From NCBI GenBank assembly GCA_900404475.1, contig OUQQ01000522.1:3935-18780 (forward strand): a stretch of DNA of 14,846 nt, read 5' to 3'. Shown here piece by piece: positions 1 to 14,846 of this stretch. Under the pieces are notes generated by a model. It saw only the letters and a program-made list of their open reading frames with translations. It was not told the origin of the DNA and did no database searches. A program made the translations under genes and the position numbers. How positions within the stretch are numbered: the first letter of the stretch is position 1; each line of letters opens with the position of its first letter. This DNA is from Spongospora subterranea (Eukaryota > Endomyxa > Phytomyxea > Plasmodiophorida > Plasmodiophoridae).

Positions 1-3000
1 TTGCACCAGACGTGAATTTAGATCTTGACGTAAAGTCAGACACCTGGGGAACTGATCGTATCAAATTACCTTGGCAAGACTGCTCCTGTGCTTTCAACCT
101 TTCGTCTACTTGCAACGAAACTTCTTCAAGTTTAAAATGAGCCTATGAGATAGTCAGCAACCTGCGACTTTCTGAAAAGGTGGTATTGCACCTGCATAGC
201 GTTTTCCTCGGCTTCATTGCGGATCGATTCTGATGCGCGCAACTGCTCACCTCGGGTCTCAAGCTCCTGGAATCAAACCATGTCATTGAAAGTCGTTGTG
301 AAATAAGGTACTGAAACCTTCATCAACGAAGTTGCTTTCTCTTGACAACTTCTTAATTCCGATTGCGTTTCTTGTTGCACCTTGGTCATTGTCTCGAGAT
401 CTTTGGTAATACCGGCACAATTCGATTGCACAGTGGCAAGTTCCTCTGTAGCCGAGTTAAGTCTTCGTAAAGCAGATTGAAGCTCCTGCTCAGCGCCTAA
501 CTAAGTCAAAATATTCAAGTTAGATAAGATATGGAGGCAGGAGCGGCAATTACCATCTTGTTTTGGTACTCTTTAAGCTGTTGTGTCAGATCAGCATTTG
601 TTTCAAGTCCTTGTTCATACTGAGCCGTCGCAGTTTCTAAAGCCGCCTCTGCTGCTTTCATCTGCTTTTGTAGAGCGTTTATAGGAATGATCGCGGCTCG
701 TGCGGAAGCAAGGTCCTACAATACTGATAAGCAAGGTGCAGGGAAAATAGCATGATTTAACCTTATCTTTGGTTCCAAGTTGTCGTTCCAAAGCTTTTAC
801 CGTCTTTTCATGGGCTGTACGTTGGTTGCGAAACTCAATAGCGTCACGGTTAGCTTGCCGTCCAGCTTCCTCTAAAGTTTGAACACGTAATTGCAGTTTC
901 TCAACCTGCTTTTCTGATTGCTTGAGGTTGCGCTCAACTGCCGACCTAAAGAACTGTTCTTGTTTTGAACCTGACATTCCCATTACCTGATCGTCCAGTT
1001 AGAAACAAAAATTCGATAAAGCATTCGCGCAGACCTGGGAAAATTTATTATTCGCTTCTTTCAAGTTTTCGTTTAGCACAGCGTTTTCATTTTCAAGCAT
1101 TGATATAATAGCTTCTTGATCGGCTGCATTACTCGTCGAAGCCTTCAATGAACTCAGTTCTGACGAAATAATGTCTTTCTCAGATTGCAATACAGCAACG
1201 GTCTCTGTCAATTCTCTCGAAAGCTGGCAAACAAAAGACGTTAGTTCCTTATCCTATTGCTTCTAATAATTGTTACCTGTTGAGCACACTCCAACCGTGA
1301 TTCGTGTTCTTTCCTAGAATTGACTTCACTATCTAATTTTGCCAGGAGTGTAGACCTTTCTTGCTCGCTCTTCCTCACCGCCTCCTGGAGCTCGAGTTGC
1401 TTGGAACTTGCATCATTGGAAGAAGCCTATATCTCCAATCAAAAGTTAGGACCGCTCAACCGTTGCCATTTACATCAACGCATTTCTTCAATTGATCATT
1501 AGCAATTTGTAGAGCTTTGAGATCGTCAACCGCTTTTTCTAACTGCGCCTGGATCGTCCCTACTTCCTCAGATTTTTGTGAAAGCTGAAAAAAAAATCAT
1601 CAAACAACGGAGAAATTTCATACAATCGTTACTTTGTCTATGCACTGTTTAAGCTCAGCTTGCCCAATGACTGTGATCTTCCGTTCTGACAGAAGACGCT
1701 CGCGCCAAGTTTCGCATTGCTCAGATAAACGCTTGGACTCAAGAGAAACCATTTCCAAATTTGTTTCTGCGGAAGCACATCTAGGCAAGAAACCGGTTAC
1801 AAATAACACAAACAAAGGCTTGCATGAACCTATCACGAAGCGTCTGATTTTCCTCGCGAAGCCGCTCACTTTCAATGGTGTCGGAATTAATATGGTCGGC
1901 AGAAGGAGTACAAAGACGTAATTGATGCTCTGCTATTTCCAGGGCAGCCAAAGCTGCATCACGTTCATTGGCAATGCTCAGTGTGGATTTCTTCGATATT
2001 GATTCGCTGTCGGTATAGGCCTGCTTAAAATGTTAAATTCTTGCAGCATTCGAAGGCAATTCAACCTCTGGCATCTCATCAATGGCGTCCAGTCCAGTGT
2101 TTCCTGCTCGTACGCGTCGCTGGGGAGCCCAAAGTTGAAGGGTAGGAGCGCTAAACGCAGCTGACGAACTGTTATACAAAGTGATGTTGCCAACAAGCAG
2201 CAGCTGACCTGGATCAACAGTGCGACGGCGTCTTGCAGCGGATCGTTTGAGATCGTTTGTTGACTGATCAGTAGAAAGCGCTGTCTAATCAGTAGCGAAC
2301 GTAAGCACCACTACCACTTTATAACAACAGCATGTACCCCGGTATTCAGATCTAGGTTATTAGCGTTGATAAAAAGTTTTCTGAGTTTTTCCGATTGCGC
2401 TTGTGCTGCTTCTAATTGCCTTGTTTTATCTTCACACTGGAGTCTGAGATCGTCAGATTCATCAGAACGACGAACCCGAGACTTGAGCGCAGAAATTTCC
2501 TTTTGAAGCCGACGTATTTGAGTCTGTTCGTCAACAATCTAAAAAATATTCAGCTTCTGCGACATATAATGCAAGCATTGGCACCATACTTCATTCTTTT
2601 TCACCACGTTTTGAATGGTCTTTGCTCTACAGGCAAAGCTGATCGTACTTATCGTTTCATCAACGTGCAGCGATGCAGGAGTAATAGCGCAGATGATGAC
2701 AGTAGATGAATTTCCACCAAGTGCGGGTGACAAAATTCTGACCCCAAGTTAGCAAAGCAGGAGTGCAATTTCTACAGCAGCGTGCCTGGTTAATTTAGAG
2801 TCACGGAATGGAATGTGCTTGCAATTATCCCCCTCACTAAGAAGGCGGATGCATTTGCCGAGCGTCAGCAGCGATTTGTTGATGTGACCTAGAAAAAGTC
2901 AACGTACACAGAGGTCGCCCTAACGTTGACAATACCTCCTTCTTTGAGTCGCATTCCTGTTGAGCCTGTGGTAGCAACTCTTTCACTACCGGCCAAATCC

Positions 3001-4063
3001 ACAAGATTCAGCGCCGCAATCTGGACTCCCCCATCAACCTGGTCGACGGACTGACCTTCTACCTGTCTTTCGCGACTCTCAATTGTCAGGCGAAAAATGG
3101 AGTGGGAACGTGAACTTTCATCGTTCATATTTGTGGAGGCAGTTTGGCGATTCGCTATGAACTATCAGTTATTTGCTAGAAAGCGTTTCATGAAAAATAC
3201 CTTGACCGTTACACAACAAAGTCATGACCTCTGCTGGCGACCTGAGTTTCAACGCTTACTTTTATACTTTGAGGATTAGGAATTGCTTTATTGTTGTACC
3301 TGACGTTTTCTTCGGTCAAACGGCCAACAAAAACGTTCCCATCAGTGTTTTCGTGGATTTTTAGGTTGGTGTTGTCGGGCGATAATAAATCGCGAATCAC
3401 CTCATTACTGAAAGGATCTTGTCAGCGACGAGAACGTCTCCAGATTCTGTGTCTTACTATATTTCTAAATGAGATACTCGAAGGAGAAATTCCCGGTTGC
3501 CATGCTACACAAGTTTGTCAGCATCGTAAGGAGATATCCACATGCTTGGCAACCTCATGAATAAACTGGAAGATGTCAGACAATGCAAATGGGATGACTC
3601 CTGGGGACTCCCTTGAGCCCATCATCGTATGGGTCTTTCCTGAAGACGTTTGCCCATATGCGAACACCGTCCCGTTGATTCCTGATCACCTTTCTCAATA
3701 AACATGTAAGTTTCTGCAGATAATTACCACAATACCTTGCATAGAAGCATTCACAACTGGAGCAGCCACAGTCTGATAAAGCATTTCCGTGGATTGCCTT
3801 TCATCAAAAACATGATCAAAAGCATATGAGTGTTGAGAATTGGGCTCGTCGCTCCTACAGTACAACTTTCAGAAGTGTTTTAAACCAATATATCCATGGT
3901 AATCGGGCCTTTCTATAATTTGTCGGTTTTTCACCGTCCAAACATGGCTTGCACCGCATTGACGCTCCCGCTCATTCAATGGTCGTAGGCGTATCGCGAC
4001 TCGCACTGACTCTCTTCGCACGTCTCCATTTCGAGCAAAGAGATGGCCGGAATCGGAATCCAT
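1..4063 (-). CDS. Kinesin motor protein with long coiled coil, kinesin-7/CENP-E-like (3' end outside window)
   Basis: ATP-driven microtubule motor. Hand-built model, exons on the minus strand: 4063-3909, 3854-3736, 3681-3542, 3504-3458, 3407-3300, 3241-3201, 3154-2936, 2888-2786, 2737-2590, 2538-2338, 2284-2066, 2020-1830, 1780-1633, 1584-1474, 1426-1277, 1223-1035, 986-762, 715-554, 500-318, 266-192, 142-70, 23-1. All 22 stay in phase and give 1010 residues before the edge. The motor domain fills about residues 15-355: RLRPLNERE near the start, P-loop GQTSSGKT (about 101-108), switch I SSRSH (217-221), switch II DLAGSE (256-261), then HINKSL. A heptad-rich coiled coil follows from about residue 361, with a basic RRRR stretch after it begins. 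ATG 4063 is the first in-frame ATG; the frame is open upstream only from a TTG. Introns are 37-58 nt; two are GC-AG. Kinesin is certain; the subfamily is inferred from the neck and tail style. Confidence 0.93.
2738..2785 (-). other. GC-AG intron 8 of the kinesin gene (48 nt)
   Basis: The donor is AG|GCACGC and the acceptor GTCAG|A. It joins the conserved motor segment DSKLTR to ILSPALGGN in frame. A GCTAAC branch-point-like site lies 12-17 nt before the acceptor. The nearby GT at 2775/2774 would add unconserved residues and break the frame. Confidence 0.8.
3855..3908 (-). other. GC-AG intron 1 of the kinesin gene (54 nt)
   Basis: The splice is AG|GC at the donor and GTAG|G at the acceptor. 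It is the only junction I found that keeps exon 1 in frame with the exon encoding AFDHVFDE. The obvious GT at 3885/3884 leaves a one-base frame mismatch and an intron of only about 31 nt, whereas the GC choice gives 54 nt, the usual size in this gene. Confidence 0.72.
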
Positions 4064-4390: not shown

Positions 4391-4596
4391 TACCGAATGT
4401 GAGCAGAAGGTAGTGAGAGTGATGAATCTAGTGAGTGCAACATGGGTGTAATGATTTGATTGTGGGAGTTGGATGACTAGATATGGCTGTGGACTTCCTG
4501 TTCAGGGTCTATAACTAGTCGGGTACAACCACAGGGTATATGTTTTGGAAAGTATCATCAAAACTTCACAACCGGTGCTGACGTCCCCTAAACTTC

Positions 4597-4790
4597 GTAC
4601 CTTCAAGGTTCTTCTGAGTATGTTTGAAAAGCTCTAAAACTCTCGGGATTCCAGACAAAGTTAGGAAACACACACGGGACAGGACTCTACGTAGTTATCC
4701 ACATTATATATCAAACACCCAGGTATGTTTTGTGTCCATATAACTTAGGTTGAGCATTTAAAAACATACTCAGTCGTTCCTTGAAGGTAC
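4597..4790. repeat. Imperfect inverted repeat / foldback, possibly a MITE remnant
   Basis: Bases 4597-4625 and 4762-4790 are reverse complements at 24 of 29 positions: two 12-base perfect blocks (AAACATACTCAG and CCTTGAAGGTAC on the right arm) flank 5 mismatched bases. Pairing weakly extends outward (GTTTA) and inward (AAGTTA...ACACA). The loop is 136 bases with no coding capacity. It could be a miniature transposon remnant or a transcribed hairpin. No clear target-site duplication was seen. Confidence 0.6.
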
Positions 4791-5513
4791 CAGGTTTACC
4801 AAACATCATCACCAGCTGTAAAGCGTTGATAATACCCTCGGTTGTATCCGATTAGCAATTGGCCTGCATATGCATTCTCTCTACTGCCGTTTCCACATCA
4901 ATCATCACCCTCCTGATATACTTAGAGAGGGAGCGCCGATTCCACACTTACCATGTACGTGCATGAACGTCAATTCTGGATGACGATAACTCAAGAATAA
5001 GCTGTCAAATGAGTTAGCGATTGTACTCAACCAGCTATATTGGTTTGGGATCTATCACATCTCTGTAGAGATTTGCACAGAGGTCGCCACTGTCAGCACA
5101 AGACATCGAAACTCCAAGAGCCATCAGATCCACGTGCTCTAAATGAAGCTACGAACCCACAAGAGCAGACTCGAGATGCACAGGCAATCACATCTGATCC
5201 TGTCGCTATTGGATGGAAGAGCCTGCGCCGTAATAGATGAACAGTCGTAAACCGGACGTGGCTTTGTTGTGCTCGAAACCGATCGCCTTGAGCAGAGGTC
5301 GCGACCTCATGAGTTGTCATGACGTCGCGCATAGTGATTTGATTTCGGCATGTGTTGTCGACAATGATGTTTTGGAACTGTTCAAAGCCGTGTCGTTTTG
5401 AGCACCACAAACTCGGTCCAGAATCATTCTGTCGATGATGTGACAAGAAATCAACGTCTGAATCTTTGCCGAAAATTAGCACATCGAATCTTACAGAATC
5501 CACTGTATTGATA

Positions 5514-8500
5514 TTAGATTTTGTGGGCTGGGCGCTGAGGTTCGGGACACAAGGATTCAAGAAACTCTAAATCATCCTGGAGGCGAAGAATCGCCAGTTT
5601 GAACTCCTCAAGGCGATCGGAGACCTTAACCACGATATTCTGTTGGGTATTCCACTCGAGCAGTGTCGCCGCATGAGCGGTCATCAATGTGGCCAGCTTC
5701 TCTCGCGCCTCCTCTACAAGGTTCGTAGGTTCCATCGACTTTACTTCTTCCGTCGACGACACCGGCAAGGACGCGCCCATCTTTTTGCTCGACCCAGCAA
5801 ACGCCTTCGGCCCTTCCGATTTGAACGGCTTCTTCGACGGCGCCAAGTACGATATCGGCATGTGTGTTGTCAACTGTTGCGCTTTGGCTTGGAATGTTTT
5901 GTACTTGTTGTAGGCGTACACGGCGCCAGGACAACCTAACCCAAATTCAGTTCGGCGCAAACAGACTCAATCACGGGCCAATTACATGCTAGCATTGCTC
6001 CCATGATGCATTCCTGGAGCATCACGTGTTTGGGCAAATACGAATTCCTCATCAAACCGATCACGACTAAAAACGTCGAGAGGATCACGGTGAACATAGT
6101 CGCTGCGTGGCCTTCGGCATCGATATCTGGTTTGAATTCCAGGAACGTTTTCCCCTGGAAGTCGGAACACTTGCGAACTAGGACCAACGCCACCACTAGC
6201 ATGAAGAACTTGGACGCCAACAATACCGGGAACATGTACTGGCTGAAAGGAGTTGTGGGACAGGAGTTGGGGTCTTCCGGAAGCGGGTGGAACGGATACA
6301 TCGTGCACATCATACCGACGATGGCGACATCGAGCGTTGCCGCTGTCAACGCCGTTGTCGCGATATGCTCATTCTTGATCACGATCAACGTCGCGGTCCT
6401 GTTCGAGAAAATCTGGGGATGATCAATGGAAACGTTCAGTATTCAATGACCCGATGACCCAACTTTGTAATATCGGAACAGTTTCCCAGCGATTGTGACG
6501 AATATCAATGACGCCCCTGCCATAATTGAAGCCAGGCGCCCAGCGCATATAGCAGCATCCTGCCTCAATGCCGACAATATCGTAAACACGCTGAACAGCA
6601 TCGTGCCGACGGAGAACGACGACAGCAGAATCGGACTGGCCAGCTTGATCTCGCGAATGTTTCTCTTGACGGCGACCACCGCCATCATCATTACTGTTTT
6701 GAAATTCGGCATGAGTCCAGAAGCAAATGCAAACAAGGCCAATTTCCTCACTTTGAGCGCAGATCAGGATGGAAGCGACCGTGATGATAGCGATGGACGA
6801 GGTAGAATCCAGATAAAATGCATCCTCCGCATCAACGACCGTCGTCTGCGTGAAAAGGTTCACCCTGCCCAGCGCACGACCCAGGACACCATGCTGCGAC
6901 GGCATCGTCGTCGTCCCGTGAGCGAATATCATCGGCATCATCGAGTTCGTGATGATTGTATCGCCCGGATCGCCCGTGTCGAGTTTGCGGGAGAACTTCA
7001 TGATGAGCTTCCCGTCGCGAATGTTTCCGGACACGGTTCCCTGATCGATATCCATGGAGCGCATCAGCATGAAATCTGGTTTCGGCGTGCTCTGAAAATC
7101 GGTTGCGACGGTGGAGTCGCTGCAGAGCGGAAACCCTTGATAGTAAAAGCACAGAATCACGTCGGCCCCGGCCATGTATCCGCCAAACCCGACCCCAATC
7201 CATCCGCCTTTCTCTGTCGACAACTCCACATTCCACATCGTGCCGTTGATTGTCCATCGCATCTCATATCCAGGAAGCGGAGAGAAAATCGGGTTCTTCG
7301 ACGTCGTCGTAACGTTCTGGACCGAACCGAAAGCCGGGTCGACCAGGGCGGCGTTGGAGCTGGCGTCGAATCCCAGCGCTGTCTGCAATGCAAAGGCGTC
7401 TTTTGGCATGTAATTGATGCTGGTGCTGTCGAGCATCATCCTGGACAAAGTACGCTTCTCAATCATGGTCTTTTCGGCTTCAGAGAACATTCCTGGGCGC
7501 AGATAGTATCGAGGGTCGGCGGCTCGCGTCCTGGTCATCTGGGCCGTCACCAGGGCGTCGAACGTGGCTGCGAGATTGTATGCTGGCAGTAAACTGTCCT
7601 CGGCCAATCCTGCAACAAACACGTCGACATCGCTCACGTTTTGGTAAAGAAGTTGAAGATTGTTCACCGTCGTCGGATTGAACGACAACTCGGCGAAATC
7701 GTGAATTTCTAGCAGACCCAATGCTGCTCGAACCTTGTTCAAAGTGGGAATTCCCAGGTCGCGCCCGCGTTGGATTATATTGGAGACCACGTCGTATGGC
7801 GCATTGGGAGAGTTCAACAAAGATGGGTCAACGTTGAGATCGGTGCTGGCCTGCGGCTGTAAAAGTAGACCGCGAATCAGGCGATCCATTCCATTCAGGC
7901 GTATCTCGGTCGGATCCAAATGGGAACCGGCGACAGAGATGACACCGTTGCCGATGGGACGGCGATTCTCGTTGGCGATGTAATGGTTCTCGTTGGTGGC
8001 GCTGACCACAAACTCCATGGCCGCGTTCAAGAACGCCACGTCGACGGCCGGATTGGTGTTGGGAATGTAGTCCACATAGGTCGGTAATCCATGTTGTAAT
8101 AGCTTTGGAATATACTGATCGTGATCGCATAGTTAGAACCTCAAAAACACTCATATGAACGGATAAGGACAGACCCACCTCATGATAAACCATCTTCTGA
8201 TTCACTGCAATGACCAGTCGTCTGGCACCTTGATAGAGTTCCTCATCGGTCCAACGCGGGTTTTCCATCTTGAGTTTGACGGCGAATCGATTGTGCTCTA
8301 AATGGAATATGGTGTGAAGGATCAAAAGCGGTAGGTTCTCATTCGCTCGTGGATCGCCGGCTAAGAACAGGTCCTGGCGATTATCTCCTCCAACGTTGCT
8401 CAAACCATTCAAGTTGAACGGCAGCAGTGGCCCAAACGGGCCTTTGCTAGTCTTCAACAGCCCATCGCTGAATGTTCGCAGGGCGTCAGCTCGCGCCTTA

Positions 8501-8955
8501 CTAGTTCCATAAACGGTCGAGCAGTCCAGCCATGAAGTGGCGCCATTCCTGCCTATCGGATACCCATTGGGGCCAACATCTCCTCCTTGCCGGGTGAACG
8601 GTATGGTGGCGTTCCCAACACAGCCTCTGTCCAGAACTGAATCGCATGTCGGCACCGGAATCGGGAATGGAGCTCCGGTGTCGCCGGGAGCGTAGGCCAG
8701 ATCGTGGGCAATCCATTGGGCGAAATACGGGAACATCGAGTTCATATCAACGATTGTGTTGTACTTGAAGGGCGTCGTGAATAGAGTTGTAGTAATGAGA
8801 CGTGGACTGGGGCGTTTCGATCCGGTCGTCATTGTTGAGTTATCGTCGAACTCGGCACCTCCCGCAATGTACTCGAACGCCGATCCAACGGCGCCGTAAT
8901 CCTGATGGTTCGGGACGGCGTCTGCCCCATCGAACGGGTATGGCGTATACGCCAT
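5514..8955 (-). CDS. Haem-peroxidase-like / DOMON / class C GPCR-like seven-helix fusion protein
   Basis: Exons 8955-8179, 8114-6752, 6693-6464, 6412-5986 and 5935-5514 give 1072 residues in frame; introns are 64, 58, 51 and 50 nt. Residues 5-530 match animal-type haem peroxidases: FAQWIAHDL (distal His84), TSWLDCSTVYG, FLAGDPR (Arg203), LEHNRFA, YHE/YIPKLL, QRGRDLG. The expected proximal His is Val296. Residues about 535-665 are a DOMON domain (WIGVGFGG, then ADVILCF). Seven hydrophobic helices follow: about 699-722, 734-755, 762-783, 806-826, 846-868, 894-913, 917-940. Class C GPCR hallmarks are IREIKLASP after helix 1, FRYYKIF after helix 3, and Cys762/Cys841 placed for the helix 3-loop 2 disulfide. 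The cytoplasmic tail ends in a probable coiled coil (about 1005-1062). Start ATG 8955 follows an in-frame TGA two codons upstream; no signal peptide is visible. Likely a surface receptor; ligand unknown. Cytochrome b561 was considered and fits poorly. Confidence 0.85.
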
Positions 8956-9001
8956 GCGTCAACCTCGACCCAATTTTTGCGATTTGGCACACGAGCAGGT
9001 A

Positions 9002-9414
9002 TTATGGATGCGCTAACCCAATAAAGTCCCAATAATTTGTTATTGGTCCAAACTGATCTGAGCTTTTAGACGTTGTGTCGACCTCGATCAAAGTACCCAT
9101 GTGGATTGAACGAAACCGTACTAATTGGCTAACCCCTCTTAACGAACGGGATCTGCTTGATCTCCGCTGCTGGGCAATGCGCTTCGTGTTTTCGTGGGCA
9201 AATTCTGGAATTTTCAGGTTATTAGAAACGTCTCTCGTATGGCGCCACTTCGATAATTTTTGGGATTCTTTCGAACATCGCCTCGCGTTTATTGATTTCA
9301 TCAGCAATTCTTGCGCAGCATTCGCCCCTTTCCCCGACCCACCGGAAAACGCAATCTCAGACTTTGTAAGAATCAAGGTAGACCGTATTTCTGTGATTTT
9401 TTATTTTGACGCAT
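9002..9414 (-). CDS. Small basic protein of unknown function (118 aa)
   Basis: I do not recognise this protein. Exon 9414-9384 (ATG, then MRQNKKSQKYG) is joined across a 56-nt GT-AG intron (9383-9328) to exon 9327-9002, giving 119 codons in frame. It is Lys/Arg/Ser-rich: an N-terminal part with ELLMKSINARRCSKESQKL, a middle with IPEFAHENTKRIAQQRR, then an RSSRSRS stretch and a less ordered tail. No signal peptide or membrane helix is visible. It sits 40 bp after the CRIB-RhoGAP stop and 46 bp before the receptor start, on the same strand. The intron size fits the rest of the window, which supports a real gene. It could instead be a mis-joined fragment; the overlapping plus-strand frame 9075-9416 looks like its shadow. 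Confidence 0.45.
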
Positions 9415-9454
9415 AGATTCACATTATCGTTCTACGTCCAGTTCATGAACCCGC

Positions 9455-10603
9455 CTAAGAGGAAGCCCGCTGGCTGATGAGAATTTCGAGGAATAAGGCA
9501 ACACGTTGCGAGAACCAGAGGGATTTCACCGGGTCAATGCGACCCGCGACTGTGAACAGATTCGGTGCGAACATGATGCCCAGATTCTTAGCCGACATCC
9601 TAACTCAAACATAGCCAGCGTCAGCGCGAGATCGCATTAAGACAATGGAACTGTTACTTGTTGGTATGAGATGATCGCACAACAAGACTGGCCAGATCAA
9701 TTAGCCACAACAATAATGTCCTTGATGGATCCGGTAAGTGGTTTACAACGTCGTTACAGCACGATGTGGAGTTGCACGTTGAAATCTACAGATTTCCAAA
9801 AACAAAGAAATTCAGAACTTCGTTTTAACCGAAGCCAAATCGAAAGTCAATGTGAAGATCAACATGAGACTATTGGCGTCAGAACAGATGTGCAATGAAG
9901 TACCTGATCATAACAGTCGTCGGTTATGATGGGCCTTGGCAGTTCACGGAAATAGACCTTGATCAGATTAGCGGCGACATTGACATCGACATCGCTGGCG
10001 ATATCTTCGCCCAGGTCTAATAGTTCTTTCACCTGACTGCAAGCGACCGCACTTGGCGTTAGTCGAAATAACCCTTTTGATGGTGATTATTAGCACATTC
10101 ATCACCGAGCATTGATTGCGAGAAACATTTGGGTTGAAGGTTTTTCATAACATCACAATTGACAGACCAGACCGCCTTATAATTGAAAATAACAAACGCG
10201 AACTGAACTGACAGACCAGACCGCCTTATAATTGAAAATAACAAACGTGAACTGAACTACCATAGGCTAATGAAACTACAATAAACCCATTGAACTGAAA
10301 TAACAAACCTTCAGTTTGAAGCCCATCATGATTGATGATGTGTTCTCTCATTTTGATGAGCACTGTAGGAATTCCAACATTGCAACCTGGTTCTAATCCC
10401 CGTTCGACTGTATTGCAATTCTAGGTGAGAATGGGCGTTGATGGGTCAATCGTTAATCACCAGGACGAACCAGTGGTAGGATCGCTGCCGAACTGTCGAT
10501 TGAGTTGCGCCTTCCATTCTCTGGGCAGACCGGAATAGACTTTCGTGATCGGATTAAACGAGACGTGGGTCGTGTGCTCGACGAATAATGGCATTGAGAT
10601 GTG
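9455..10603 (-). CDS. CRIB-RhoGAP protein, ROP-GAP-like (5' exon unresolved)
   Basis: Probable GTPase-activating protein for a Rac/Rop-type small GTPase. Exons 10603-10471, 10407-10309, 10073-9904, 9785-9658 and 9599-9455 stay in phase. The first holds a CRIB motif (ISMP..., HTTHVSF, then YSGLPREW), the GTPase-binding element. The rest is a RhoGAP domain: GIPTVLIKMREHI, EGLFRLTPSA with the arginine finger, NVAANLIKVYFRELPRP, LPDPSRTLLLWLIDL, NKMSAKNLGIMFAPNLF. CRIB directly before RhoGAP is the order in plant ROP-GAPs. Introns are 63, 235, 118 and 58 nt; the 235-nt one carries a tandem duplication. The protein ends soon after the GAP fold (stop 9455). Upstream, a plausible start is ATG 10758 (MNISRAESD...), but I could not find a clean splice from it; another possibility is a 45-nt intron 10648-10604 after an exon in a different frame. 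Confidence 0.85.
10161..10258. repeat. 49 bp tandem duplication inside a RhoGAP intron
   Basis: Two adjacent 49-base copies, 10161-10209 and 10210-10258, differ at one base (AACGCG versus AACGTG). On the gene's strand each copy contains GTTTGTTATTT, which is also the start of the host intron at 10308. A partial third trace lies near 10289-10308. The duplication accounts for much of this intron's 235 nt, far longer than its neighbours. Confidence 0.9.
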
Positions 10604-10758
10604 CTGCCGCCCAGTAAATATCAAAAACGGGGCACAGATCATTGGGACAGGGGGCGGGGATTCCAAGATATCAAACAATGGGCGCCGTAGAATTTTGAGT
10701 TTTGGCCAGGCGCAAATTTGGGAGACACAATGTCAGATTCTGCCCGGCTTATGTTCAT

Positions 10759-11278
10759 TTGATCGTCACATCTGTACTGTACCCACCCATCATGATATTG
10801 CCAAAGATTTTATTCCACTCAACTTAATCCACTCAACTCAATTTGCTTTCCGGATTTCTCCTCGTCGAAAATGTTATGATTGAAAAATTGGCAATCGAGA
10901 ATAAACAACAACACAGATCAACCACAGATCGAACTCGATCCAGATGATCCTAAAATTGGTTGTTCTCTACCAGATCATCTGACCCTACGTGCCGGCTAAG
11001 TATGGACGCGACCGCGATTAGCGCACTGGTGTGGGTACTGTTACCTCAGCCGAATATACATACCAGATCGTGTGTGTGTGTGTGTGACGACCCAATCTAC
11101 CAGGTACATACCGTTATAGTGGCGCCATGGGTAAGGCGACCCCTTTCCTGATGGCCCTTATTACGCTTCAGTAAGCTTTGGCCGGAATCGCCACCCTCTA
11201 TTCGCCACCGGAACAAACGATTGCTGTCGCTGTGGACTCGCAACGTCTAAGGTCGACACCGCCGCCCGACTACCTGTG
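10759..11278. promoter_or_regulatory. Divergent spacer between CRIB-RhoGAP and ATP-grasp-SET genes
   Basis: The two flanking genes point away from each other, so this stretch probably holds both promoters; no specific box can be named. It contains a short direct repeat (CCACTCAACT at about 10815 and 10830) and the GT microsatellite at 11070. A 15-codon upstream reading frame (ATG 11127, stop ending 11174; MGKATPFLMAL...) precedes the ATP-grasp-SET start and could dampen translation if transcribed. Confidence 0.4.
11070..11086. repeat. GT dinucleotide microsatellite
   Basis: Eight GT units plus a final G, about 190 bases upstream of the ATP-grasp-SET start codon. It is likely length-variable; no function is implied. 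Confidence 0.9.
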
Positions 11279-13333
11279 ATGTCCTCATCGACCAAGGACT
11301 CCGACTGTATCCGTGTGTGCGTCTTGTCTTCGTCGTACGAGGGCTCGCAGGCGTTGACCAAGGATTGGGACAACTACGTTTGCACTCCGGCCAATGTCCT
11401 CAATCAGGATCCGCGATATGAATTCACCAACGCGTTGATACTGAAAGCCACTGCTTATTCCCAGGTGGATTTCCGTCCACGACCTCAGAAAGTCAATCAA
11501 CAATCACTAAGTACTGTGTTTCTTAAGATTCGTGCTCTGGTAAATTCCGGCAAGTTCGATGTATTCTTCAACATGTGTGATGGCGCTAAAGATGAAGATC
11601 GGGCTGGAATTACGGTTGGAACCTGAAAATTCCCCGTTCTACCAACGTCCCCGGCTGATATCTGTAATATTACTAGGTCGTGCAGGCATTGGAAGAGTTT
11701 GGGGTCGCGTTTACAGGATCGGATTCCCTTCATTATGAACCGTCGAAACTGGATATGAAAATGCTGGCGTTCTATGCTGGGATAAAGGTTCGACGATAGA
11801 TTGTTGAAACTGGAGCTGCACTGCCTTTGACATGGTACGTTTTTGCAGGTCCCTCCCTTTGCCAGGGTGTCCATTCGGGACGATGTGACCCAGGTTTGCG
11901 GGCACCTCAACTTCCCAGTGATCGTGAAGCATATCAGTGGATATGGGAGCGTTGGCATGAGAAAAGAGTCCAAATGCGATAATATCAAGGAGTTAAGAGA
12001 TGAAGTAAAGAGGTATGTGTGGATATAATTGCGCTTCCCGATCACGACAACATTCATGTTCAGATTCATCGATATGTTTGGCGACGCTTTGGTCGAGGAG
12101 TTTATCGAGGGAGTTGAAATTAACGTTCTTGCGATGGAAGAATTAGACGGCAATTCGATACGAGTATTGCAACCTATACAGGTATCGGAAATCGCGTTAG
12201 CGACTTTGTTATTGGAGGTTTGAATCATCTGATAGATTGTGTTTCCACCCGGAGAATCATTCAAACATTTCGATCTTAAATGGATCGGAATGCACAATCA
12301 TCAGGTGTCTGTAATAGTTGATGATCCAACGCTTTCGAAGACCTGTGCACGGATTGGACTCACAGCTTTCGAACGAATTCTTGGCGGTGTTGGGTCTGTT
12401 ATCATAGCAATTGTTCACAAGCATTGTCAGCTCATCTGATGATCAGCTATGGCCGCTCCGACTTCCGAGTTTGCGCCAAGACCGGTGAGGTCTACTTGCT
12501 AGAAATCAACCCCAATTGCGGTTTGTTCTACCCAAACAGAGACGGGACTGCTGATTTGATCATGGATGTCGACCCCATTACTCCAGCTGGAGTCGCAAGG
12601 CATTTGATTCAGGCGGCTCTTAACAGAAACAAGCGCCTGGCAGCTAAAGTATATGTGTACACCAAAATCATCGTGTCATTGTCTAACCGTTGTGATCCAG
12701 GTTGCTCCATCCAAGGTCACTTTCCATCCTTCTAAAGGTTATCACGTTTGTGCAACCCGAGACATTTCCGCTGGGGACCTCGTGTTCAGGGACGAATCGT
12801 CCAGCTTCACTCTAGTTACCAAATCTTACGCGCAAACCCATTGGAATGACGTTGATAAACTCGCGTTCGCTCAATATGCCTGGCCGCTATCCAATGAGGT
12901 CAGGTTCTGTTCAGTGCAGCACAAACCCCTTCCTTAATCTCAGATTCGTTTAGGCTTTTGTGACCTGGAATCCAGATCCCAAGTCGTGGAGACCGATAAA
13001 CCACTCTTGTTCCCCTAAGTCTGGTTATCCCATATTTACCAAGAATCTTGTTGAGATCAATCGTTTTTTAGTCTGTGGTTTGGTGAAAACCATTCATTCA
13101 ACGTGTACGCGCGCACTAACATCAAGGAAGGCGAACAGTTGACAATGGATTATGCAACATTTTGTTCCGGGCCGCTCATGCACGCGTTTGAATGTGAATG
13201 CGAAGCGTCATCCTGTCGCAAGAAAATCACACCGCTGGATTACAGCGAAAGATCGGAGCTTCGCCAAGTTTATGGAACGCGGGTAACCGACTATATCTAC
13301 AGCAAGTTTAAAAAAAGTGGCGAACTTTCATGA
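11279..13333 (+). CDS. ATP-grasp (D-Ala-D-Ala ligase-like) and SET-domain fusion protein
   Basis: Exons 11279-11614, 11677-11787, 11849-12012, 12064-12181, 12236-12386, 12431-12648, 12701-12898, 12954-13018 and 13072-13333 sum to 1623 nt, or 540 residues plus stop; introns are 44-62 nt. Residues 1-360 form an ATP-grasp ligase: FNMCDGAKDEDRAGI, PVIVKHISGYGSVGM (nucleotide-binding Lys176), VEEFIEG, FPPGESFKHFDLKW, and Asp304/Glu318/Asn320 (LLEINPNCG) at the metal-binding positions. Residues about 367-505 are a SET domain: CATRDISAGDLVF, NHSCSPN (448-454), LTMDY (Tyr481) and a post-SET-like Cys cluster CEC....CR (495-503). It may condense an acid with an amine using ATP and/or methylate a lysine; the substrate cannot be read from sequence. 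No targeting signal is seen. The start is the ATG at 11279. The gene converges on the Vta1 gene, 109 bp away. Confidence 0.92.
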
Positions 13334-13442: not shown

Positions 13443-14707
13443 TTATGGTCGGGCACCCGACCACTGTTGCAGGCGACGGATACGCTCCAACGCCTCTAAC
13501 AGCAAACGATCAGCCGCTACCCAATCTGTGAACGAGGTTCCATTGAGCTTCTTCGTTGACAATTGATGTAAACAGTGATGACCTTTGAAGCGCATACTTG
13601 AGAGCGCCTGCGAAGTTTTCTTCTCCGCTTCAGTGATAGTTGTGTAATATTCCCTTTGCAGATCTGAACGAAACGATGGGAGTCACATCCTATGATAAAC
13701 GATCGAACGCACCCATTTGTGCTGGCGCAGCTGATATCGTTGGACCAGGGAAATTCGATGAGAAGTTATTGTTAGCGAGTTCAGGTGGCTTTTCAACGGG
13801 AGAATCGATTGCATGACTGTTGGAAAGCGGGCGAGAGTTTGTTTCTCTAAAATCGACTTCATCGTCATCAAATCTAAAAATGCCCACTGAAATGAATTCG
13901 ATTTGCTCTTGCGGTCGCAGAATGCATTACGAAGTTTCGATTGGCTGAATTTTGAAATCGCTGATTGGCCTTTCTTTGATGTCTTCGGGAGCGTATGGTC
14001 CGGCGATGGGCTTCGATCCGCTCTGCACAAGGTGAATCAGTAATCGTCATCGGAAGAGGAACTCTAACGAACGGAACCTTGAGACATTTCGAAATATCCG
14101 CTGCTTTCCATTTTGCATAAACGATTTTTTCTTCGATTTCAGGATTTAAAGCATCGAAATACTCCAAACATTCAAACACAACGGAAGCGGTCAAGAAAGC
14201 AAGGATTGTGTTCTTATCAGCTTTGCCTTCTCGGTCGATCCTGAAAGTTGTTTTCACAATCAGCAAGAAGCACTGGAAGCGCCTGTACGATTACCACCAT
14301 TAACAACATATACTCACTTATCAGCGTAGTTAAAGATTGTTGAAGCGAATGTCTCAACGATAGCTTTGTCATTGATTTTGTCAATGGTTAGGTCTCCTCG
14401 AGCTTTCTCCAACTGGTCCATCTGAAAAAACTTGGTTAATCACATGCATAAGTGCCACGATATTAAGGGGCTAACCAGAAAACCAAGGTAGGCCCTCGTG
14501 GTCGCATCACGTTGCTGGTTTGGAGTTTTCAATGCAGTAGAGCATGCGAACACGCGAACTGAATATCTCAGTAAAGGCAAGTTCGCAGAGAATCAAAGTG
14601 CACATACGATAGTAAGCGATTACGGGTTGATTGGATTTTTCAACAGTATTAGCTTGAATGATGAACCGTTTGATCGACTTGAGCGATTCCGGAATGGCAA
14701 CCGCCAT
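13443..14707 (-). CDS. VTA1: Vta1/LIP5 homologue, ESCRT-III/Vps4 cofactor
   Basis: Promotes Vps4 ATPase assembly at endosomes during multivesicular-body sorting. Exons 14707-14552, 14514-14476, 14421-14318, 14240-14078, 14022-13931, 13873-13713, 13663-13583 and 13525-13443 give 292 residues in frame. The N-terminal tandem-MIT region is clear: PVIAYYRM, FLMDQLEKARGDL, then DREGKADKNT, and EEKIVYAKWKAADISKCLK near residue 150, a family signature. A Pro/Ser/Asn-rich linker (about 155-235) follows, then a short VSL dimer and Vps4-binding domain, EAEKKTSQALSSMRF joined to AADRLLLEALERI. The intron inside VSL (13582-13526) is 57 nt with no stop, so it could be misread as coding. The first intron is the least certain: GT at 14551 gives 37 nt, while a GC donor upstream would give about 64 nt and a length nearer the human protein. 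Confidence 0.9.
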
Positions 14708-14786
14708 GGATGGCGATCACAGCAGTGATTGGCAAATGGAGATACGAATACAGTGCGGTGCGTGTTACCCTTTATAGCTGTACCGT

Positions 14787-14846
14787 GAACCACTGCCTAA
14801 ATCAGTGCACCACTGCATAATTCAGTACACCACTGCATAATTCAGT
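14787..14846. repeat. 20 bp tandem repeat array, continuing past the right edge
   Basis: Three units: 14787-14806 (diverged), 14807-14826 and 14827-14846. The last two differ only in their first base; the core is CACTGCATAATTCAGT. The array starts 80 bases upstream of the Vta1 start codon, so it may sit in its promoter. Total copy number is unknown because the window ends here. Confidence 0.9.

Follow-up and report, generated by a model that had tools for sequence, protein, structure and literature searches.

Class C G protein-coupled receptors (GPCRs) act as dimers, in which the heads move the seven-transmembrane (7TM) domains. A Venus flytrap head is usual in animals but is not required for class C, as non-animal members carry other heads, and outside animals the ligand heads of this class are varied and little studied. 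Several kinds of periplasmic-binding heads are described in passages on the fungal members of the receptor class (PMC3251606), and glutamate-family receptors with 5_nucleotid_C domains are described in those on choanoflagellates and other animal relatives (PMC12716839). In oomycetes, the GPCR-bigrams presented in PMC6033456 include AP-GPCR, which carries an N-terminal aspartic protease. In the parts concerned, such receptor surveys (PMC12716839 and PMC3251606, as well as the choanoflagellate GPCR survey considered below) are devoted mainly to animals with their relatives, to fungi, and to amoebozoans. In this study, we describe a gene from the lineage Plasmodiophorida, located in a stretch of 14,846 nucleotides of Spongospora subterranea DNA (contig OUQQ01000522.1, positions 3,935 to 18,780 of the forward strand; hereafter the window), whose predicted product joins a peroxidase-homology domain and a DOMON to a 7TM domain of class C. 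GPCRs with enzyme-type heads are already known; a head that pairs peroxidase and DOMON was met neither in the open-licence literature nor in protein-database searches of limited sensitivity.

A search of the whole genome (20.6 Mb in 679 contigs) found the gene once. A reading made earlier from the sequence only had proposed a phase-consistent model of five exons and 1072 amino acids, which proved exact at 5514-8955, the minus strand being a detail that it did not give (Table 1). Three Pfam families were detected in the whole protein (hmmscan, up to E = 10), in the order An_peroxidase (347 bits against a cut-off of 25, E = 2.4e-103, residues 9-500, profile positions 5-530 of 530), DOMON (57.7 bits against a gathering score of 32.7, E = 1.8e-15), and 7tm_3 (56.0 bits against a gathering score of 33.5, E = 6.3e-15), and NCBIfam gave no match. 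The order of domains given by the sequence-only reading was thus recovered, and at the level of a gene model the peroxidase-like, DOMON, and class C 7TM parts are established in one spliced frame.

Table 1. Features of the receptor-like gene and of the second class C gene. Positions are those of the window unless a contig is named. TM, transmembrane segment; ICL and ECL, intracellular and extracellular loop; nt, nucleotides; aa, amino acids.
Feature	Position	Strand	Description
Receptor-like gene	8955-5514	minus	5 exons, 1072 aa; phase-consistent model read from genomic sequence
Exon 1	8179..8955	-	Residues 1-259; N-terminal half of the peroxidase-homology domain, with distal Gln80/His84 and Arg203/Glu206
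Intron 1	8115..8178	-	64 nt, phase 0, GT-AG
Exon 2	6752..8114	-	Residues 260-713; a single open frame with the peroxidase-homology domain (C-terminal half), DOMON, and TM1
Intron 2	6694..6751	-	58 nt, phase 1, GT-AG; separates TM1 from the remaining 7TM domain
Exon 3	6464..6693	-	ICL1, TM2, TM3 (Cys763, FRYYK)
Intron 3	6413..6463	-	51 nt, phase 0, GT-AG; an intron of the second class C gene matches it in place and phase (K|IF)
Exon 4	5986..6412	-	ICL2, TM4-TM6, first part of TM7; Cys841 in ECL2
Intron 4	5936..5985	-	50 nt, phase 1, GT-AG
Exon 5	5514..5935	-	End of TM7 (CCPGAVYAYNKY), cytoplasmic tail, heptad-like stretch (by eye), stop codon
Val296 codon	8004..8006	-	Aligned with the proximal haem His column of active relatives
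DOMON	6915..7268	-	Pfam, residues 542-659; candidate haem ligands Met573 and His667 (His667 just beyond the match)
7tm_3 match	6068..6809	-	Residues 695-905, TM1 to TM6, across exons 2, 3, and 4
Perfect palindrome	8940..8955		16 nt, begins at the proposed start codon; spotted by eye
Second class C gene (L010)	contig C256, 2945-5949	+	7tm_3 and 5_nucleotid_C

The hydropathy profile shows peaks for seven segments between residues 702 and 938, together with an additional weak peak (1.43) inside the DOMON. The class C features named by the earlier reading are all present, namely IREIKLASP following TM1, FRYYK|IF following TM3, and Cys763 in TM3 with Cys841 in ECL2, a candidate disulfide pair. Among PDB sequences (phmmer), the membrane part matched GABA-B receptor 2 (3e-5) and GPR156 (2.6e-4), and more weakly mGlu7, mGlu6, and GPR158; the GPR156 and GABA-B2 matches begin upstream of the junction between exons 2 and 3 and continue beyond it. 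Taken singly, exon 3 scored 28.6 bits for 7tm_3 (1.4e-6), below the curated cut-off of 33.5 bits, and exon 4 gave no 7tm_3 match. The score rose to 38.4 bits when the end of exon 2 was placed before exon 3, with profile positions 3-98 aligned to residues 6-101 of the joined piece without net gap. Exons 3 and 4 together reached 49.7 bits, a value that did not improve with exon 5 (48.6), and the full joined 7TM reached 58.4 bits (1.1e-15). None of nine controls (eight block-shuffles and one reversal) matched 7tm_3 up to E = 10; other families appeared in three of them, none better than E = 0.12. The Pfam and PDB matches, the gain in score on joining the exons, and the controls support the assignment of the helices to the class C (glutamate/GABA-B family) 7TM domain, as the earlier reading had it, and a membrane part of this kind most likely belongs to a receptor.

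The likeness to described class C GPCRs (GABA-B2, GPR156, mGlu, GPR158, and the glutamate-family receptors of protists and fungi) lies in this 7TM domain and its TM3-ECL2 cysteine pair. The difference lies in the head, where, ahead of the helices, Pfam detected An_peroxidase and DOMON alone and gave no match to a Venus flytrap, a Cache, or a cysteine-rich domain up to E = 10. The membrane part is classified as a class C 7TM domain and not as a canonical class C receptor because neither a Venus flytrap nor a Cache head was found, and the classification does not extend to a working surface receptor because the assembled model begins without a signal peptide. The distribution of lysine and arginine, counted by eye on the gene model, is four, five, and four in the inner loops 1, 2, and 3 and one, zero, and two in the outer loops, which fits a topology with the head outside. 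In addition, the possible cysteine pairs of the head (Cys104/Cys112 and Cys581/Cys590, with Cys145 left without an evident partner) and the N-glycosylation sequons, five of six of which fall in the head, fit passage through the secretory path.

A second class C gene was found in the same genome, with 81 bits for 7tm_3 and 74.7 bits for 5_nucleotid_C in a model made by eye. The 7TM parts of the two genes are 24% identical in the alignment, and BLASTP gave 29% over 122 columns (E = 3e-7 in a single comparison). Its intron after TM3 interrupts the same residue pair, in phase 0, as intron 3 of the peroxidase-DOMON gene. The N-terminal part resembles a metallophosphatase by eye, though no Pfam metallophosphatase match was obtained up to E = 1, and this head may perhaps have lost its enzyme function too. 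A genome search with the 7TM part of this second gene returned itself alone and missed even the peroxidase-DOMON gene, so that further paralogues could be overlooked. The 5_nucleotid_C receptors of choanoflagellates and other animal relatives (PMC12716839) share with the peroxidase-DOMON gene a class C 7TM that carries a domain of extracellular-enzyme origin, and the second gene is of the same sort; the peroxidase-DOMON gene differs from them in the enzyme family and in its DOMON. The oomycete bigrams likewise combine a GPCR with an enzyme domain, which is N-terminal in AP-GPCR, although the enzyme is a different one and the bigrams are drawn in that source with a C-terminal domain predicted to be intracellular. 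Further 5_nucleotid_C matches occur on contig C258 (3757-4293) and contig C210 (2902-3132).

On balance, and with guarded confidence, we favor the explanation that the gene encodes a class C 7TM protein, most likely a receptor, that senses through a non-catalytic peroxidase fold and a haem-holding DOMON. Among the points in its favor, the class C match of exon 3 gains about 10 bits, in register, from the TM1 that is encoded together with the DOMON; intron 3 agrees in place and phase with an intron of the second class C gene; and that second gene also has an enzyme-derived head. The head, consisting of the peroxidase fold, the DOMON, and a linker of about 35-40 residues, would be extracellular. 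The ordinary catalytic cycle of peroxidases would not take place in the peroxidase-homology domain, which would instead act as a binding or dimerization module, as in DUOX, while the DOMON, holding a b-type haem between Met573 and His667, would be the likelier redox- or ligand-sensitive part. Together, the two domains could form a dimeric binding or redox-sensing head, in which binding or a change in the redox state of the haem would be passed through the linker as a movement of the 7TM bundle. The moved bundle would be predicted to activate one of the several G-alpha proteins of the cell; G-alpha profile matches above the cut-off occur on seven contigs (C447, C367, C338, C55, C193, C469, and C499). 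A more specific version can be put forward only tentatively, namely that the protein is a GPCR sensing the redox state, haem, or a peroxide-related ligand via a dead peroxidase fold and a haem DOMON, as one of a set of receptors of this lineage headed by retired extracellular enzymes, the second gene having a 5'-nucleotidase-derived head. If true, such a head would link redox chemistry outside the cell, or haem, directly to G-protein signaling, and would also suggest that enzymes, once retired, can be taken up as heads of receptors, with two candidate genes in one genome.

Several points weigh against the favored explanation. The five-exon fusion is a gene model derived from genomic DNA, and the coupling to G-alpha is putative. 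TM7 lies outside the Pfam 7tm_3 match, which ends in TM6, and the PDB class C matches span TM1-TM4 at most. Haem binding by the DOMON is possible, and draws on the ligand positions of CDH-type cytochromes and on an alignment of five sequences in which Met is found in three. Predicted structures of individual pieces were of too low a quality for use, with mean pLDDT (predicted local distance difference test) values of 40.5 and 32.6, and protein-database searches of about 8000 candidates each returned no orthologue with the same domain order. The start of the gene is the most awkward part. The assembled model begins at the peroxidase domain with no signal peptide, an in-frame TGA stands two codons upstream of the ATG, and a scan of positions 8956-11000 for ATG-led peptides of at least 15 amino acids yielded only two (at 10642 and 10351), neither of them convincing. 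One would not expect a head of about 695 residues to lie outside the cell if it lacks a signal peptide. The missing signal peptide and the TGA had gone unmentioned in the sequence-only reading, as had the loss of the proximal histidine discussed below.

This anomaly at the 5' end could reflect an assembly error there, an unusual splice, or a decayed gene start; no AG acceptor was seen by eye from the TGA up to where the conserved residues of the peroxidase domain begin. The possibility that the 5' end is misassembled or the gene decayed, the true signal-peptide start being missing or lost and the receptor not made as assembled, is unlikely but is the alternative that survives best. The absent signal peptide, the TGA, and the 16-nucleotide palindrome at the start speak for it. 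Against it, the remaining frame runs uninterrupted through 1072 codons and its introns are clean, and the codon bias of exons 1 and 2 persists in the next two exons and, with less clarity, in exon 5. With the bias trained on exons 1 and 2, the modeled frame exceeded both shifted frames in all three later exons, with positive values for exons 3 and 4 and a value of about zero (-0.019) for exon 5. For exons 3-5 together, one reverse frame reached 0.072 against 0.117 for the modeled frame, and the best frame of intron 2 reached 0.204, so that codon bias gives weak support to the frame of exons 3-5. By our own estimate, about 0.2 palindromes of this length would be expected per window with even bases.

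The peroxidase-homology domain retains much of an active site. Gln80, His84, Arg203, and Glu206 are invariant in the nine aligned sequences (the gene product and eight database relatives); we take the distal Gln/His and the catalytic Arg/Glu to have the roles assigned in myeloperoxidase, and the proximal haem ligand to be His336 in myeloperoxidase numbering. The column of that proximal histidine holds Val296 here and histidine in eight of the ten aligned relatives, the two others being DUOX-type sequences (P0006 and P0008) that have also lost the distal Gln/His. Among solved structures, the nearest relatives by sequence are 8s6c (named lactoperoxidase, 1.8e-63) and, after it, peroxinectin A (6.2e-53); they differ from this domain in having histidine opposite Val296 in both printed alignments. 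With valine in place of the proximal haem histidine, the head probably does not work as a peroxidase. A "sensing head from a redox enzyme", as the earlier reading called it, therefore holds for the ancestry of the head and probably does not hold for its function. It is improbable, in our judgment, that the head is still an active peroxidase, with unusual haem ligation or assisted by a partner, on a receptor-like membrane domain whose 7TM would report turnover of product or substrate. The four invariant residues would suit such an enzyme, as would the distal Gln/His, kept here and lost in both DUOX-type sequences, but the proximal position is histidine in all eight relatives that are not of DUOX type as well as in the two best PDB matches.

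In DUOX, too, a peroxidase-fold head that lacks the haem-ligand histidine is carried, extracellularly, by a multi-helix membrane protein. For human DUOX1, the structural paper, in the passages concerned, reports a peroxidase homology domain without haem, which its authors judged probably non-functional as a peroxidase (PMC7794343). DUOX as presented there differs in its NADPH oxidase membrane part, and the gene described here keeps the distal Gln/His. Descent of this domain from DUOX, considered since both lack the proximal histidine, was not supported by a tree of 11 sequences, which does not join them and places the domain on a long branch (2.41), without firm placement, apart from the DUOX-type sequences. 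The loss of the proximal histidine may be independent of that in DUOX.

It is very improbable that the locus comprises two adjacent transcription units, one for a peroxidase-DOMON protein with a single membrane helix and the other for a separate 7TM gene. Exon 3 does open with three ATG codons, and if intron 2 were retained the frame of exon 2 would continue to a stop at 6423. However, TM1 belongs to the exon of the DOMON and, together with exon 3, gives an in-register class C score, a separate 7TM unit would hold only six helices, and the tail read through the retained intron 2 had no family match up to E = 1.

The DOMON itself could bind a b-type haem. Met573 aligns with Met in two of the four other DOMONs of the genome (three of five in all, in an alignment of just these five sequences), and all five have, by eye and not as one strict column, a C-terminal histidine ahead of their last conserved stretch. 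By likeness to CDH-type DOMON cytochromes, we take Met573 and His667 to be the candidate axial ligands, and haem in the DOMON seems more likely than haem in the peroxidase fold. Searches of the PDB by sequence with the DOMON segments found no DOMON relative. The DOMON-b561 and CDH-type cytochromes resemble this protein in the DOMON and its candidate Met/His pair and differ in the membrane part and in the N-terminal partner. A b561-type electron-transfer module is the usual partner behind DOMON, and elsewhere in this genome one DOMON is joined to a ferric-reductase part and two others resemble DOMON-b561 proteins; nevertheless, a cytochrome b561-like or other electron-transfer identity of the helices is rejected as scarcely credible, as the whole protein gave no b561 or ferric-reductase match in Pfam up to E = 10, class C matches were obtained in both Pfam and PDB, and no control matched 7tm_3.

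The first of those other DOMONs (contig C38, 63749-63985) shares its frame with the ferric-reductase-like membrane part (Ferric_reduct, 1.3e-8). Of the two that resemble DOMON-b561, the one on contig C358 has a weak b561 match (0.0092) below the cut-off, and the one on contig C642 was recognized by eye only. Another DOMON protein, on contig C485 (4365-5147, minus strand), begins, by eye, with what looks like a signal peptide and ends in a hydrophobic C-terminus of the kind seen in glycosylphosphatidylinositol (GPI)-anchored proteins.

The statement of the sequence-only reading that no receptor with this order of domains had been described agrees with what was found. In the main texts of the open-licence literature, no combination of peroxidase, DOMON, and class C GPCR and no pairing of 7tm_3 with An_peroxidase was encountered; DOMON and 7tm_3 occurred together in one paper, on RPL39L; the main text of the choanoflagellate GPCR survey has zero mentions of DOMON or peroxidase, and nothing on a Plasmodiophora class C GPCR was found in the open-licence literature. 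A protein-database search with the whole protein scored 7993 candidates and gave 10 relatives, each of which covers 48% of the query at most, and the DOMON-7TM part gave no relatives among 7995. These searches are of limited sensitivity. For the 5_nucleotid_C receptor, nothing was returned at E ≤ 0.001 among 7994 candidates despite the widespread domain family, so that the absence of other fusions is weak evidence.

Elsewhere in the window, a kinesin motor match (1.9e-21) lies at 2889-3161 on the minus strand, in a gene that by eye apparently extends to about 4180. Upstream of the receptor-like gene, a P21-Rho-binding domain match (7e-7) was found at 10457-10732 on the minus strand, with RhoGAP-like sequence, recognized by eye, farther along the same strand. 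A Vta1-like match (2.2e-14) occupies 13874-14290 of the minus strand, and a weak SET match below the cut-off lies at 13055-13333 of the plus strand. Tandem repeats occur at 10157-10254 (two 49-nucleotide copies, 96%) and 14785-14844 (three 20-nucleotide copies), and an inverted repeat at 4552-4835 has 79-nucleotide arms that are 75% complementary and separated by 126 nucleotides. In the remainder of the genome, Zn_clus gave three weak matches, and the chitin synthase profile matched 4 of 14 control genomes as well; neither search yielded a placement of the host among fungi. The best match to a human EF-1A fragment, on contig C349, is only 48% identical and reads like an EF-like (EFL) protein. 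The polyubiquitin on contig C459 carries single extra residues (T, A, and S) at its three monomer junctions. An insertion of one or two residues in polyubiquitin is described as specific to Rhizaria in the relevant part of PMC3014934, and the three extra residues fit this rhizarian signature.

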